Below, one piece after another: positions 490 to 5,188 of a stretch of DNA of 64,000 nt. The stretch lies in NCBI GenBank assembly GCA_944363715.1, contig CALVUX010000001.1:1-64000 (forward strand). The letters run 5' to 3'. Made by a program: the position numbers and the translations under genes. This stretch comes from an uncultured Bacilli bacterium. Its GTDB lineage: Bacteria > Bacillota_I > Bacilli_A > RF39 > UBA660. Under the pieces are notes generated by a model. The model was not told the origin of the DNA, made no database searches, and saw only the letters and a list, made by a program, of their open reading frames with translations. Every line of letters begins with the position of its first letter. Positions within the stretch are counted from its first letter, which is position 1.

Positions 490-3435
490 ATGTACTTGAA
501 AGAAATTGTAACAAATGGTTTTAAATCGTTCGCTGATAAAATGGAGATAAAACTAGATGATGAAGTTACTTGTATTGTTGGACCTAATGGAAGTGGTAAG
601 AGTAATATTGTCGATGCTATACGTTGGGTATTAGGAGAACAATCAGTTAAAAATTTACGTGGTGACGGGGGTATGAGTGATGTAATATTCGCTGGAAGTG
701 CATCTCGTAAATCTAAAAATGTCGCTAGTGTAGAACTTATCTTTGATAATAGTGATCACTATCTAAAAATAGATTATAGTGAAGTTAGTATTAAAAGAAG
801 AGTCTATAGAAGTGGAGAGAATGAATACTTTATTAATAATAATAAAGCAAGGCTAAAAGATATAGTTAATCTTTTTCTAGATAGTGGTGTTGGAAAAGAA
901 TCATTTAATATTATCTCTCAAGGAGAAGTATCTAAAATAATTAGTGAAAGTACTGATGATAGAAGAGTTGTTTTTGAAGAGGCAGCAGGTATTTTGAAAT
1001 ATAAAAAGCGTAAAGAAGAAGCCTTAAGAAAACTAGATAAGACAAATGATGCACTTGACAGAGTAGAAGATATTATAAAAGAGTTAGAAGTACAAGTAGA
1101 GCCTTTAAAAGAACAAAGTGAGAAAGCGAAAGAATATAAAACTCTTAAAGAAGAATTAGAAAACCTTGAAATAGCTTTAATCGCTTATGATATTTATTAT
1201 CTATCTACTAATGAAGAAATATTAAAGAAAGAAAAAGATGCTCTAGATAAAGAGATAGTAGATTTAGAGAGTACTGTTAATAAAGATAGTGGTGTCTCTT
1301 TAAAGAAAAAGACAGATTTATTTAACTTAGAGAAAGATTTGGAATTTACACAGAAAGAGTTACTTAATAAAACAGAAGAGATAGGTAAATTAAACGTGCA
1401 ACTTAATATCTTAAAAGAACAAAGAAAGAATAAAGATACTACTAAAGTAGAAGAAGAGTTAAGAGCCTTAATAGATGAGAAAGGTAAGATTAGTAAAGAT
1501 ATTAGTGTCTTAGAAGATGAGATAAATATTATAAATCAAGATATTTCCAATATGAATGATGATATTAACTCTAGTAAGAATAATCTTAAAGGTCTTAGAT
1601 TAACTCTAAAGAACTATGAACAGACACAGAGTAAGCAAGATAGAGATATCTTAACTAATAAACATAAAGTAGAGTTGTTGAGATTAGAAGCAGAAAGAGG
1701 TAATAATTTACCTAATGCTATTAAGAAAATACTAGAAGAAGATAAATTACAAGGAATCTATGATATTATAGGTAATGTTATTAAGACTAAAGATGAGTAT
1801 GTAAGATGTTTAGATGTTGCTATTTCTAGTAGTAAAAACTTTGTTATAGTTAAAGATGAAGATAGTGCTAAAGAAGCGATTAGATATTTAAAGAATAATA
1901 ATTTAGGAAGAGCGACATTCTTTCCTATTAATGTTATTAAAAGAAGATATGTAGATGAAAATACTTTATCAGTTTTAAAAACTATAGATGGATATATTGG
2001 TGTTTTGGCAGACTTGGTTACTACAGATAAAGAATATAAAAATATTGTCTATAATCAATTAGGACTTGTATTAGTTGCAGAAGACATGGACACTGCTTTA
2101 AGAATAAGTAGAAAGATAGATAGACGTTATAAAGTAATTACTCTAGCAGGTGATGTTATTAATGTAGGAGGATCAATGACAGGAGGTGCTAACTATAAAG
2201 GAAGAAGCTCTGTTATGATTAATCAAGAGATTACTAACTATATTAATATAATTACTAGTTTAGAAGAATCTAATAAGAAAATTAGTCTTGATATTAACGA
2301 TACTAAAGAAGATATAAGAAAATTAGAAGATAAGATATATCTTAAAGAAAAGGACTTAAAACTATTAATAGATGATGTTACTAATAAAAATCATGCTCTA
2401 ATAAGTGATAAAGATACTCTTAGTAGTATTAGTGATAATATTGATAATTTATCAAGTAATGAGAATACTCTTGATACTAAAGAAGAAGAGTTAGTAACAA
2501 GATTCTATGATTTAGAAAGTTTTAAAGAAAAATTAGAACTTAAACTAACTACTCTTAAGAAAGATATAAAACTATTAAAAGACGAAATAGAAGAAGATGA
2601 AGAGAAGAGTAAATATAAGAATAATTTAATTAGAAAGACTGAAGAGAAAAGAAATAGTTTAGATCTTAAACTTAAAGAAATAGATGTAAAATTAGATAAT
2701 TTACTTAATACTTTAAGTAGTGAATATTCTATTACTTATGAAAAGGCTAGAAAAGATTATGAACTTGATGTAGAAGAACGTGATGCTAGAAGTAAAGTAA
2801 GTAACTACAAAGCTAGAATTAAAAGTCTTGGTATGGTTAATTTAGCAGCGATAGATGAATATGAAAGAGTTAATACTAGATATATGTTTTTATTACATCA
2901 AAAAGAGGATTTAAGTAAAGCAATTGCAACACTACTTGAGATAATGAATGAGATGGATGAAGTTATGAAAGAAGAATTCTTAAAGACTTTTGAATCTATT
3001 AGAAAAGAGTTTAAAGAAGTCTTTAGAGCATTGTTCCATGGAGGAGAAGCAGATTTAAAACTAACTAGTGATGATATCTTAACAACAGGAATAGAAATAG
3101 TTGCATGTCCTCCAGGTAAGAAGTTAACTACTATTAGTTTATTATCAGGAGGAGAAAAGACTTTAACTGCTATAAGCCTCCTATTTGCAATCATCAATGT
3201 TAGAACAGTGCCATTCTGTGTCTTTGATGAAGTAGAAGCAGCTTTAGATGAAGCGAATGTTATGGAATTTGGTAAGTATCTCGCTAATTATAAACATAAA
3301 ACACAGTTTTTAATAATTACTCATAAGAAAAAGACAATGGAGTATGCAGATACTTTATATGGTATTACGATGCAAGAGTCAGGGGTATCTAAACTTGTTA
3401 GTGTAAAGTTAACTAATAATGAAGAATTGATATAG
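490..3435 (+). CDS. smc: Chromosome segregation ATPase SMC
   Basis: SMC condensin subunit. It is an ATPase that, with ScpA and ScpB, organises and segregates the chromosome by loop extrusion. The Walker A motif GPNGSGKS is at residues 31-38. Long coiled coils (about 165-395 and 600-800) flank a hinge that ends near the glycine-rich GGSMTGG. The ABC signature LSGGEK and the Walker B FDEVEAALDEAN close the C-terminal head. At 981 aa it is roughly 200 residues shorter than the usual ~1180 aa, with the loss in the coiled-coil arms and all head motifs intact. The usual neighbours rnc and ftsY are absent. It has its own promoter. Confidence 0.96.
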   Translation: MYLKEIVTNGFKSFADKMEIKLDDEVTCIVGPNGSGKSNIVDAIRWVLGEQSVKNLRGDGGMSDVIFAGSASRKSKNVASVELIFDNSDHYLKIDYSEVSIKRRVYRSGENEYFINNNKARLKDIVNLFLDSGVGKESFNIISQGEVSKIISESTDDRRVVFEEAAGILKYKKRKEEALRKLDKTNDALDRVEDIIKELEVQVEPLKEQSEKAKEYKTLKEELENLEIALIAYDIYYLSTNEEILKKEKDALDKEIVDLESTVNKDSGVSLKKKTDLFNLEKDLEFTQKELLNKTEEIGKLNVQLNILKEQRKNKDTTKVEEELRALIDEKGKISKDISVLEDEINIINQDISNMNDDINSSKNNLKGLRLTLKNYEQTQSKQDRDILTNKHKVELLRLEAERGNNLPNAIKKILEEDKLQGIYDIIGNVIKTKDEYVRCLDVAISSSKNFVIVKDEDSAKEAIRYLKNNNLGRATFFPINVIKRRYVDENTLSVLKTIDGYIGVLADLVTTDKEYKNIVYNQLGLVLVAEDMDTALRISRKIDRRYKVITLAGDVINVGGSMTGGANYKGRSSVMINQEITNYINIITSLEESNKKISLDINDTKEDIRKLEDKIYLKEKDLKLLIDDVTNKNHALISDKDTLSSISDNIDNLSSNENTLDTKEEELVTRFYDLESFKEKLELKLTTLKKDIKLLKDEIEEDEEKSKYKNNLIRKTEEKRNSLDLKLKEIDVKLDNLLNTLSSEYSITYEKARKDYELDVEERDARSKVSNYKARIKSLGMVNLAAIDEYERVNTRYMFLLHQKEDLSKAIATLLEIMNEMDEVMKEEFLKTFESIRKEFKEVFRALFHGGEADLKLTSDDILTTGIEIVACPPGKKLTTISLLSGGEKTLTAISLLFAIINVRTVPFCVFDEVEAALDEANVMEFGKYLANYKHKTQFLIITHKKKTMEYADTLYGITMQESGVSKLVSVKLTNNEELI

Positions 3436-3495
3436 CATAAATTATAATATTATGTTAAAATTACAGTAATGAAAGTAGAAGAAAGAAGGTAAAAA

Positions 3496-3624
3496 ATGAG
3501 AAGACTATGTTTACTAAATGTTACCTGGGGGGGGGGATACTTAAATTACCAGAATGGTAGTTTAAACATTGCTTTCTTTCATTATGACTTAAAAGAACAG
3601 AGGATAATTATAGTCTTTTTATAG
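3496..3624 (+). CDS. Small ORF containing a G10 tract (42 aa)
   Basis: An AGAAGG SD lies six bases before the ATG. The frame runs 42 codons from MRRLCLLNVTWGGG and crosses ten consecutive G residues (3527-3536) before ending in TAG. With 9 or 11 G the same start gives about 15 or 21 residues, so tract slippage would switch the C-terminus. No family is recognised. Its position just before a surface-protein gene suggests a contingency-type leader, but it could be a decayed gene or a non-coding leader. Confidence 0.35.
   Translation: MRRLCLLNVTWGGGYLNYQNGSLNIAFFHYDLKEQRIIIVFL
3527..3536 (+). repeat. Homopolymeric G10 tract
   Basis: Ten consecutive G residues, followed directly by an 11-bp inverted repeat (3541-3551 with 3555-3565, loop GAA, one G-T pair). 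Such a run is highly improbable in this AT-rich background and is typical of slipped-strand phase-variable loci. The exact length may be uncertain for sequencing reasons. Confidence 0.8.
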
Positions 3625-3648
3625 TGTAATAATGGAAGGAGTAGGAAA

Positions 3649-5136
3649 ATGAAAAAATTATTATTAGAAGCAAGTTTTAGTAAGATATATATGATATTAA
3701 TGATTATAATAACTCTATTAATATTAGGAGGATACTTTTCGTATGCCATGTTTACAGTGACAAAAGAGAAAAGTAATGCTATTAGTATAGTAACAGGTAA
3801 TTTAGTCTATAAAATGACAATAAATGATGAGGATACTAATATAATTACTATACCTAAAGGAAGTATAATGGATTTTAAAGTAGTACTATCTAATCCTAAT
3901 AATATATCGGCAAGATTTAATATAGCATACAAAGAAAGAGAAGGAGTAGTATTGGGATATATAGAAACTAGCGAAAATATACCTCCAAAAGAAGAGGGAG
4001 TTAACTTAGAAAAAGATAAGACTATAGGTTCAAGTAATATCTATAATCTAAGAGTAAGAAATGAAACAAGTGAAGATATAGAAATAGAATTAGTAGTAAA
4101 AGTAGGACTTGATTATAATGATTTAACTATAGATGAAGATAAAATAACAATAAAAAAATATGATGATATATTATTAAAAGATTATATAATGAAATTAAGA
4201 AATGAAGATAGTAATAAAGATTATAATAGTAGTAGTGAATATGAGAAAAAACAAATGTATACCTTTAATCATGAAGTAACTGAACAACAAACAAGTTGGA
4301 GTGAAGATGAATTAACAGATTATAGATATATAGGAGATAATCCTAATAATTATATAGAATTTAATAATGAATTATGGCGAATAATAGGTGTATTTACAAC
4401 AGAAAAACAAGATGGAACAAAAGAACAATTAGTGAAGATAATAAAAGAAACCCATATTGCAGATACTACATTATCTTGGGATGCTAATGCTGATAAAACA
4501 TATAAAGATATATGGGCTCAAGCCGAAGTTAATAAAATGTTAAATGGCGCTTATTTAAATTCAAGTACAATGACTTATTATAATTATCAATATAGAACAG
4601 GAATATTAACAACTGTAAACTTAGATTTTAGAGAAGAAGGAAATGGAACTGAAACAGGCCTAAGTAATGTAAGTGATATGATAGAGCCTGTTAAATGGTA
4701 TACGTCATCTTATAAATTTACTAACGTAAGTGATCCAGAATATGTTAAACTTAGTGTTGATGAAATGTATGCAAGCGAAAGAGGAACACTAACAGTAAGT
4801 GGAGGAAGTCCTAATTTCATTGGTAAAATAGCATTACCATATCCATCAGATTATGGTTATACAGTAGGTTATAATTATAATATTAGTTGTTATAATAAAC
4901 CTTATGCTAATACAAATTGTACTAATCCTAGAACATGGATATTTTCTAATTATCAGTCTACAATTACAACATTATCTATGGGTAGAAATTTCATTCAAGT
5001 TGTTAATACAGGTTTAGTTTCAACTGATTCATCAAGAGACTATTACATATCGCCTACACTTTATTTAACATCAAATATAATTGTTAAAAGTGGTAATGGA
5101 ACAAAAGAAAATCACTTTATTTTATCAGTAAATTAA
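3649..5136 (+). CDS. Membrane-anchored surface protein, LWRIIG-type
   Basis: A 495-aa exported protein with SD GGAAGGAG. A single hydrophobic segment (about residues 14-34) is followed by SYAMFT and a beta-rich region (about 40-170), resembling TasA/camelysin-type signal regions that end SYA-FT. From about residue 220 there is a module with NELWRIIGVF, a Trp-rich middle and a closing PTLYLTSN...GNGTKENHF motif, a pattern I associate with surface proteins of gut Firmicutes. No sortase motif is seen. It probably remains anchored by the N-terminal helix. The biochemical role is unknown. It lies downstream of the G10 tract, so phase-variable expression is possible but unproven. Confidence 0.6.
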   Translation: MKKLLLEASFSKIYMILMIIITLLILGGYFSYAMFTVTKEKSNAISIVTGNLVYKMTINDEDTNIITIPKGSIMDFKVVLSNPNNISARFNIAYKEREGVVLGYIETSENIPPKEEGVNLEKDKTIGSSNIYNLRVRNETSEDIEIELVVKVGLDYNDLTIDEDKITIKKYDDILLKDYIMKLRNEDSNKDYNSSSEYEKKQMYTFNHEVTEQQTSWSEDELTDYRYIGDNPNNYIEFNNELWRIIGVFTTEKQDGTKEQLVKIIKETHIADTTLSWDANADKTYKDIWAQAEVNKMLNGAYLNSSTMTYYNYQYRTGILTTVNLDFREEGNGTETGLSNVSDMIEPVKWYTSSYKFTNVSDPEYVKLSVDEMYASERGTLTVSGGSPNFIGKIALPYPSDYGYTVGYNYNISCYNKPYANTNCTNPRTWIFSNYQSTITTLSMGRNFIQVVNTGLVSTDSSRDYYISPTLYLTSNIIVKSGNGTKENHFILSVN

Positions 5137-5139
5137 TAT

Positions 5140-5188
5140 TATCACTTGATACTTTTATATTTTTTTACTATTCTATTATCAGGTGATA
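5140..5188 (+). promoter_or_regulatory. Inverted repeat covering the hemW SD
   Basis: Twelve bases at 5140-5151 pair with 5177-5188 (one G-U), loop 25 nt. The 3' arm contains AGGTGAT, the Shine-Dalgarno of hemW. The hairpin could hide the ribosome-binding site in a read-through transcript. Confidence 0.5.

Follow-up and report, generated by a model that had tools for sequence, protein, structure and literature searches.

Poly-G tracts in the leaders of surface-protein genes as a predicted phase-variable, translation-coupled attenuator in an uncultured genus of Bacilli

Introduction

In ribosome-coupled attenuators such as pyrBI and trp, translation of a leader decides whether an intrinsic terminator forms, with no phase variation, and self-sequestration of the leader Shine-Dalgarno sequence (SD) has been described for trp. 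In Neisseria porA, a poly-G tract in the promoter spacer mediates phase variation. Slippage and leader-peptide attenuation had been found together, as far as the open-access literature shows, in one species and two operons, pil1 and pil3 of Streptococcus gallolyticus. In pil1, GCAGA repeats within a leader ORF determine where its stop falls with respect to a stem-loop terminator, and this mechanism was proven by showing its dependence on translation and by testing terminator and start-codon mutants (PMC3894217). We found no other work joining phase variation with leader-peptide attenuation in the open-access literature, and papers beyond it may exist.

The locus described here was singled out by an earlier note, which called the surroundings of a poly-G tract a classical phase-variation layout. 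Comparison across a large family of leaders places it instead in the rarer attenuator type, with a terminator further down, and not in the classical promoter or coding-frame layout.

Results

The window, by which we mean the whole 64-kb stretch of DNA that was analysed (26% GC), contains a single run of G or C of at least seven, a G10 tract at 3527-3536. All features of the window given below lie on the + strand. The description in the earlier note held for each part near the tract: a small ORF spans it (3496-3624, 42 aa at G10) and begins 6 nt after its SD, AAGAAGG (3483-3489); a hairpin lies just 3' in the variable middle segment (3541-3565, -9.5 kcal/mol, z -4.3); and a surface-protein gene, put at about 110 bp, lies 112 nt beyond the tract, with its start at 3649. 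Immediately 5' of the tract is a core, GTTTAC-N5-GTTACCT (3509-3526), and further down follow an element termed D, TTGCTTTCTTTCATT (3569-3583), which is complementary to the SD region of the leader ORF, a degenerate remnant of an intrinsic terminator (3591-3621), and the SD of the surface gene, GGAAGGAG (3634-3641). A weak promoter-like match 5' of the leader (TTGATA-18-TATGTT, 3427-3456) has 9 of 12 matching positions, which is not above the shuffled expectation, and marks a putative promoter of uncertain position.

The surface gene (3649-5136) was defined by its ORF, a paralog search and a structure model. It encodes a protein of 495 aa, a member of a multigene family with many paralogs in the home genome, and is predicted to have an N-terminal membrane helix (residues 10-35) followed by a beta-rich domain (55-155), in a model of low confidence (mean pLDDT 44). 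Pfam and NCBIfam searches of this protein gave no confident family match. Leader and gene form a cassette (3437-5150, borders approximate) that is missing from close relatives. Because smc stands directly beside hemW in these relatives (L131, L132, and L137), we read the cassette as an insertion between smc and hemW.

The 1.4 Mb assembly of the home genome (26% GC) contains 12 tracts of G8 or longer, and all 12 lie in one type of leader, a concentration far beyond chance. Eleven of these leaders precede surface-protein paralogs and one lies in a prophage-like locus. The latter (L039:2586-2595, G000:C23) is the only G8+ tract of the home genome outside surface-gene leaders; it has tail-like genes on one side and a holin-like gene on the other, and the next gene is apparently frameshifted at an A7 run. 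About 30 of the 35 genomes from the genus, which comprises Candidatus Onthousia and relatives, carry the leader, with a maximum of about 30 loci in one genome; the string GTTACCTG6 occurred in 29 of 100 related genomes, every one of them in this genus. We assembled a set of 84 distinct leaders, whose tracts are 7-12 G long. Their order is SD, start of the small ORF, core, G7-12, variable middle, D (TTACTTTCTTTCATT in the family), intrinsic terminator, SD, and gene, and the gene nearly always encodes a large surface protein from one of several subfamilies. The diverged genomes G017, G019, and G028 share this design, though their core is altered and their middle and stem differ. An Rfam covariance-model search of the leader found nothing with an E value of 1 or less, and a search for the core in viral contigs gave no matches.

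Two further observations concern the leader DNA. In every leader family the tract is preceded by a repeat with 11-bp spacing, GTTWAC-N5-RTTAMC (3509-3526 in the window), which is read in different reading frames. At L105:4370-5378 and in L064, an element with a XerD-like tyrosine recombinase lies directly 3' of the leader tract, and fragments of its end (TTTTTATCCTTAAGCATAAAA) recur in the middle of leaders L059, L087, L109, L117, and L126, possibly as scars.

We then asked where the leader ORF ends at each tract length, with ORF starts picked by SD score. The segment from the tract to D was open in one frame in all 76 leaders that have a TTTCTTT anchor. Counted as distinct middle segments, 62 of 62 were open in that frame, compared with 24 expected in shuffles (at most 37 in 2000), and the other two frames were open in 0 and 2 of the 62. 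In 76 of 78 leaders, the ORF ended within the 5' arm of the terminator stem in exactly one of the three tract-length phases, although the leaders share ancestry and such counts are not independent. In this phase, designated ON, nearly all stops fell +9 to +17 nt into the 5' arm, whereas stops in the other phases (OFF) lay at least 20 nt upstream of the terminator in 154 of 154 cases. Applied to leaders outside its derivation (the diverged genomes and one other genus), the rule fitted 22 of 27; of the five misfits, one was at a contig end, two had no real terminator, one had two passing frames, and one had its ON stop 3 nt before the stem. At the assembled lengths, 15 of 78 leaders were in the ON phase, which is less than one third (p = 0.008, relatedness ignored). 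Tract length thus alters the end of the small ORF as the earlier note had expected, in a one-of-three pattern, but the predicted effector is the terminator together with an SD-sequestering segment and not the hairpin at the tract. The tract-adjacent hairpin was rejected as effector, most leaders being without it. A conserved leader peptide was also rejected, as neither its N-terminus, its middle, nor its end is constant and the reading frame of the core differs between leaders.

A hairpin followed by a T run was present between leader ORF and gene in 80 of the 84 leaders, typically at -9 to -14 kcal/mol, and one pair of its stem covaried (T-A in 45, C-G in 30). Pairing of D with the SD region of the leader ORF had a mean energy of -14.9 kcal/mol and a mean z of -3.4. 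Among representatives of dissimilar families, the native SD/D pairing beat all but 0, 2, 10, and 2 of 5000 permutations in four draws, and it was kept with unrelated sequence in, for example, L052, L059, L074/L241, and L233. D also paired with the SD of the surface gene at good energies; that pairing was no better than in permuted pairs (345-969 of 5000) and was dropped as a candidate. Since D and the terminator do not overlap, D would act to stop renewed translation of the leader when no ribosome is passing.

Based on these results, the tract probably acts as a phase-variable switch within a transcription attenuator that is coupled to translation. The short leader ORF would be translated across the G tract, and replication slippage would lengthen or shorten it by one or two Gs. 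In a single phase out of three, the ORF would stay open through D and end in the 5' arm of the terminator, so that the ribosome would hold terminator and D open, RNA polymerase would read on, and the surface gene would be expressed. In the other two phases, the ORF would stop at least 20 nt upstream, the terminator would form, and the gene would be OFF; D would then pair with the leader ORF's own SD and block further leader translation, presumably sharpening the OFF state. The anatomy, the one-of-three frame gate, the covariation of terminator and of SD with D, and the tract-length differences between orthologs were established by comparison; from these we infer slippage, the activity of the terminator, the effect of the ribosome, and the sharpening by D. 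The proposed attenuator does not account for the conserved core, and in some cases a promoter-like sequence follows the leader, with the gene only about 185 nt further on, which counts against it.

The earlier note had proposed a comparison with other strains, and tract length does vary at orthologous loci. In three pairs, compared between species-level MAGs that are mostly short-read assemblies in which homopolymer lengths may be off by one, the predicted state differed: L080 (n=9, OFF) and L089 (n=11, ON) represent one locus from two MAGs, with 99.0% identity across 4.9 kb and leader flanks that do not differ; L109 (n=7, OFF) and L087 (n=8, ON) are 90.8% identical; and L115 (n=10, OFF) and L073 (n=9, ON) are 89% identical. 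Loss of mismatch repair was rejected as the cause: MutS is present in 34 of 35 genomes, so there is no general defect of repair, a point that counts against the proposed switch. Tracts of G9-G11 are long enough for transcriptional slippage, and most leaders stand one base away from the ON phase, as would suit slippage of RNA polymerase or the ribosome in every cell. Each leader would then yield leader peptides in fixed proportions, and expression would be tuned and leaky instead of switching heritably. We consider this unlikely, given that genomic tract length and phase differ between orthologous loci; moreover, such slippage would use the same gate, and it is compatible with slippage of the DNA rather than exclusive of it.

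Alternatively, core and tract could serve chiefly as a joint at which surface-gene cassettes recombine, to be moved or exchanged, with length variation incidental. The absence of the cassette between smc and hemW in close relatives agrees with such a joint, as do leaders L071 and L103, which are alike from 27 nt before the tract onward and not upstream, leaders L088 and L080, which have a common upstream part and different middles, and the core itself, which is kept at the DNA level regardless of reading frame. A joint would, however, leave the frame gate, the placement of stops in the terminator stem, and the SD/D covariation unaccounted for, and we regard it as improbable compared with the attenuator.

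Exceptions to the surface-gene rule include leaders L060 and L062, which precede EssC of type VII secretion (TIGR03928). Two EssC leaders contain a tract (G10 and G9), and each is at a length at which the ORF stops inside the stem of a different terminator. In two further EssC leaders the tract was lost (L159) or absent (L164), and the ORF in each stops only a few nt from the base of the stem. In all four EssC leaders, two of them tract-free, the ORF stops in, or at the margin of, the stem of a different terminator. The attenuator seems to outlive the tract here, as is expected if locked-ON forms are allowed. Across species (L157, L161, L159, L164, and L158), EssC has the leader in some and a tract-free, locked form in others, and EssC of the home genome is without this leader.

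In other genera of the bacterial family (L177-L189, L197, L202, L208-L210, L214-L216, L220, and L226), many G8+ tracts lie in apparent promoter spacers, for example TTGACA-N6-G12-TAAAAT, and precede signal-peptide proteins; in L198, also of another genus, the tract is inside the start of the surface gene itself. Because these promoter-spacer tracts belong to related surface genes, the bacterial family is taken to use poly-G switches in more than one position. The tract of the present genus might likewise be a spacer between -35 and -10. Tracts in G044, G046, G048, and G051 do lie between TTGACA-like and TAAAAT/TAGAAT/TATCCT-like hexamers, at a total spacing near 17, and TTTACA occurs within the core. 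Against this, no conserved -10 follows the tract in this genus, as one does in the other genera, the tract is within an ORF having an SD, and in the EssC leaders an extended -10 (TTTGCTATAAT) is upstream of the ORF. We therefore hold a spacer role to be highly improbable here and retain the translation-coupled attenuator.

The window copy departs from its family. Its ORF would end at 3544 with G9 or G12, at 3560 with G8 or G11, and at 3624 with G10, the last because the leader stop TAG has mutated to CAG. Element D and its pairing with the segment that contains the leader SD (-15.0 kcal/mol) are retained. Most paralogs in the same genome have terminator stems of about -9 to -13 kcal/mol, whereas a terminator search of the window leader found none, and the remnant folds at -3.0 kcal/mol (z +0.84). 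With G10 in the passing frame and the terminator degenerate, the window copy is probably ON and may be locked ON, no longer switchable via its terminator. Phase variation as proposed in the earlier note is consequently strongly favored for the family, by the tract lengths of 7-12, the differences in length and state between orthologs, and the one-of-three stop rule, and may no longer operate in the window copy, given the decay of its terminator.

Discussion

We lean, by a modest margin over even chances, toward a still broader interpretation: a genus-wide regulon of poly-G frame gates that takes in tens of surface loci in each genome as well as a type VII secretion locus. Its attenuators would be self-locking, in that out-of-frame tracts allow termination and also shut leader translation via a covarying anti-SD. 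Each locus would have a sharp, heritable ON/OFF state independent of the others, and the surface repertoire would be combinatorial. Dozens of surface genes would be randomly switchable in each cell. Since the ON/OFF state would be readable purely from sequence, the expression states of the surface repertoire could be read from metagenomes, and the leaders would offer many natural replicates for testing at what distance a ribosome begins to disarm a terminator.

The system can be set against those already described. pyrBI and trp are switched by a metabolite or charged tRNA, and the poly-G leaders would be switched by the length of a DNA tract. Like porA-type systems, the leaders have poly-G before surface-protein genes, but in a translated leader and not between -35 and -10. 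The closest relatives are pil1 and pil3. In both systems a tandem repeat lies inside a leader ORF, here with its own SD, and surface genes follow a stem-loop terminator; the repeat length modulo 3 puts the leader stop either before this terminator or inside it, the longer leader is predicted to prevent termination, and OFF is commoner than ON. The pil1 mechanism was tested by experiment and the poly-G leaders are known from comparative data; judged by these, with the repeat in an SD-bearing leader ORF, the terminator, the modulo-3 stop placement, and length variation between relatives, the family is probably of the pil1 type. The differences lie in the details and in the scale. The repeat is a homopolymer of G7-12 rather than a series of GCAGA pentamers, and, unlike in pil1 and pil3, the middle segment has one open frame and two closed ones, a covarying downstream element pairs with the leader SD, an 18-bp core is conserved, and the leader also occurs before a type VII secretion gene. 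In place of two pilus operons, there are up to about 30 loci per genome throughout a genus. Joined in this way, repeat slippage and leader-peptide attenuation seem to have turned into the usual means by which an uncultured genus of gut bacteria controls a large family of surface genes.
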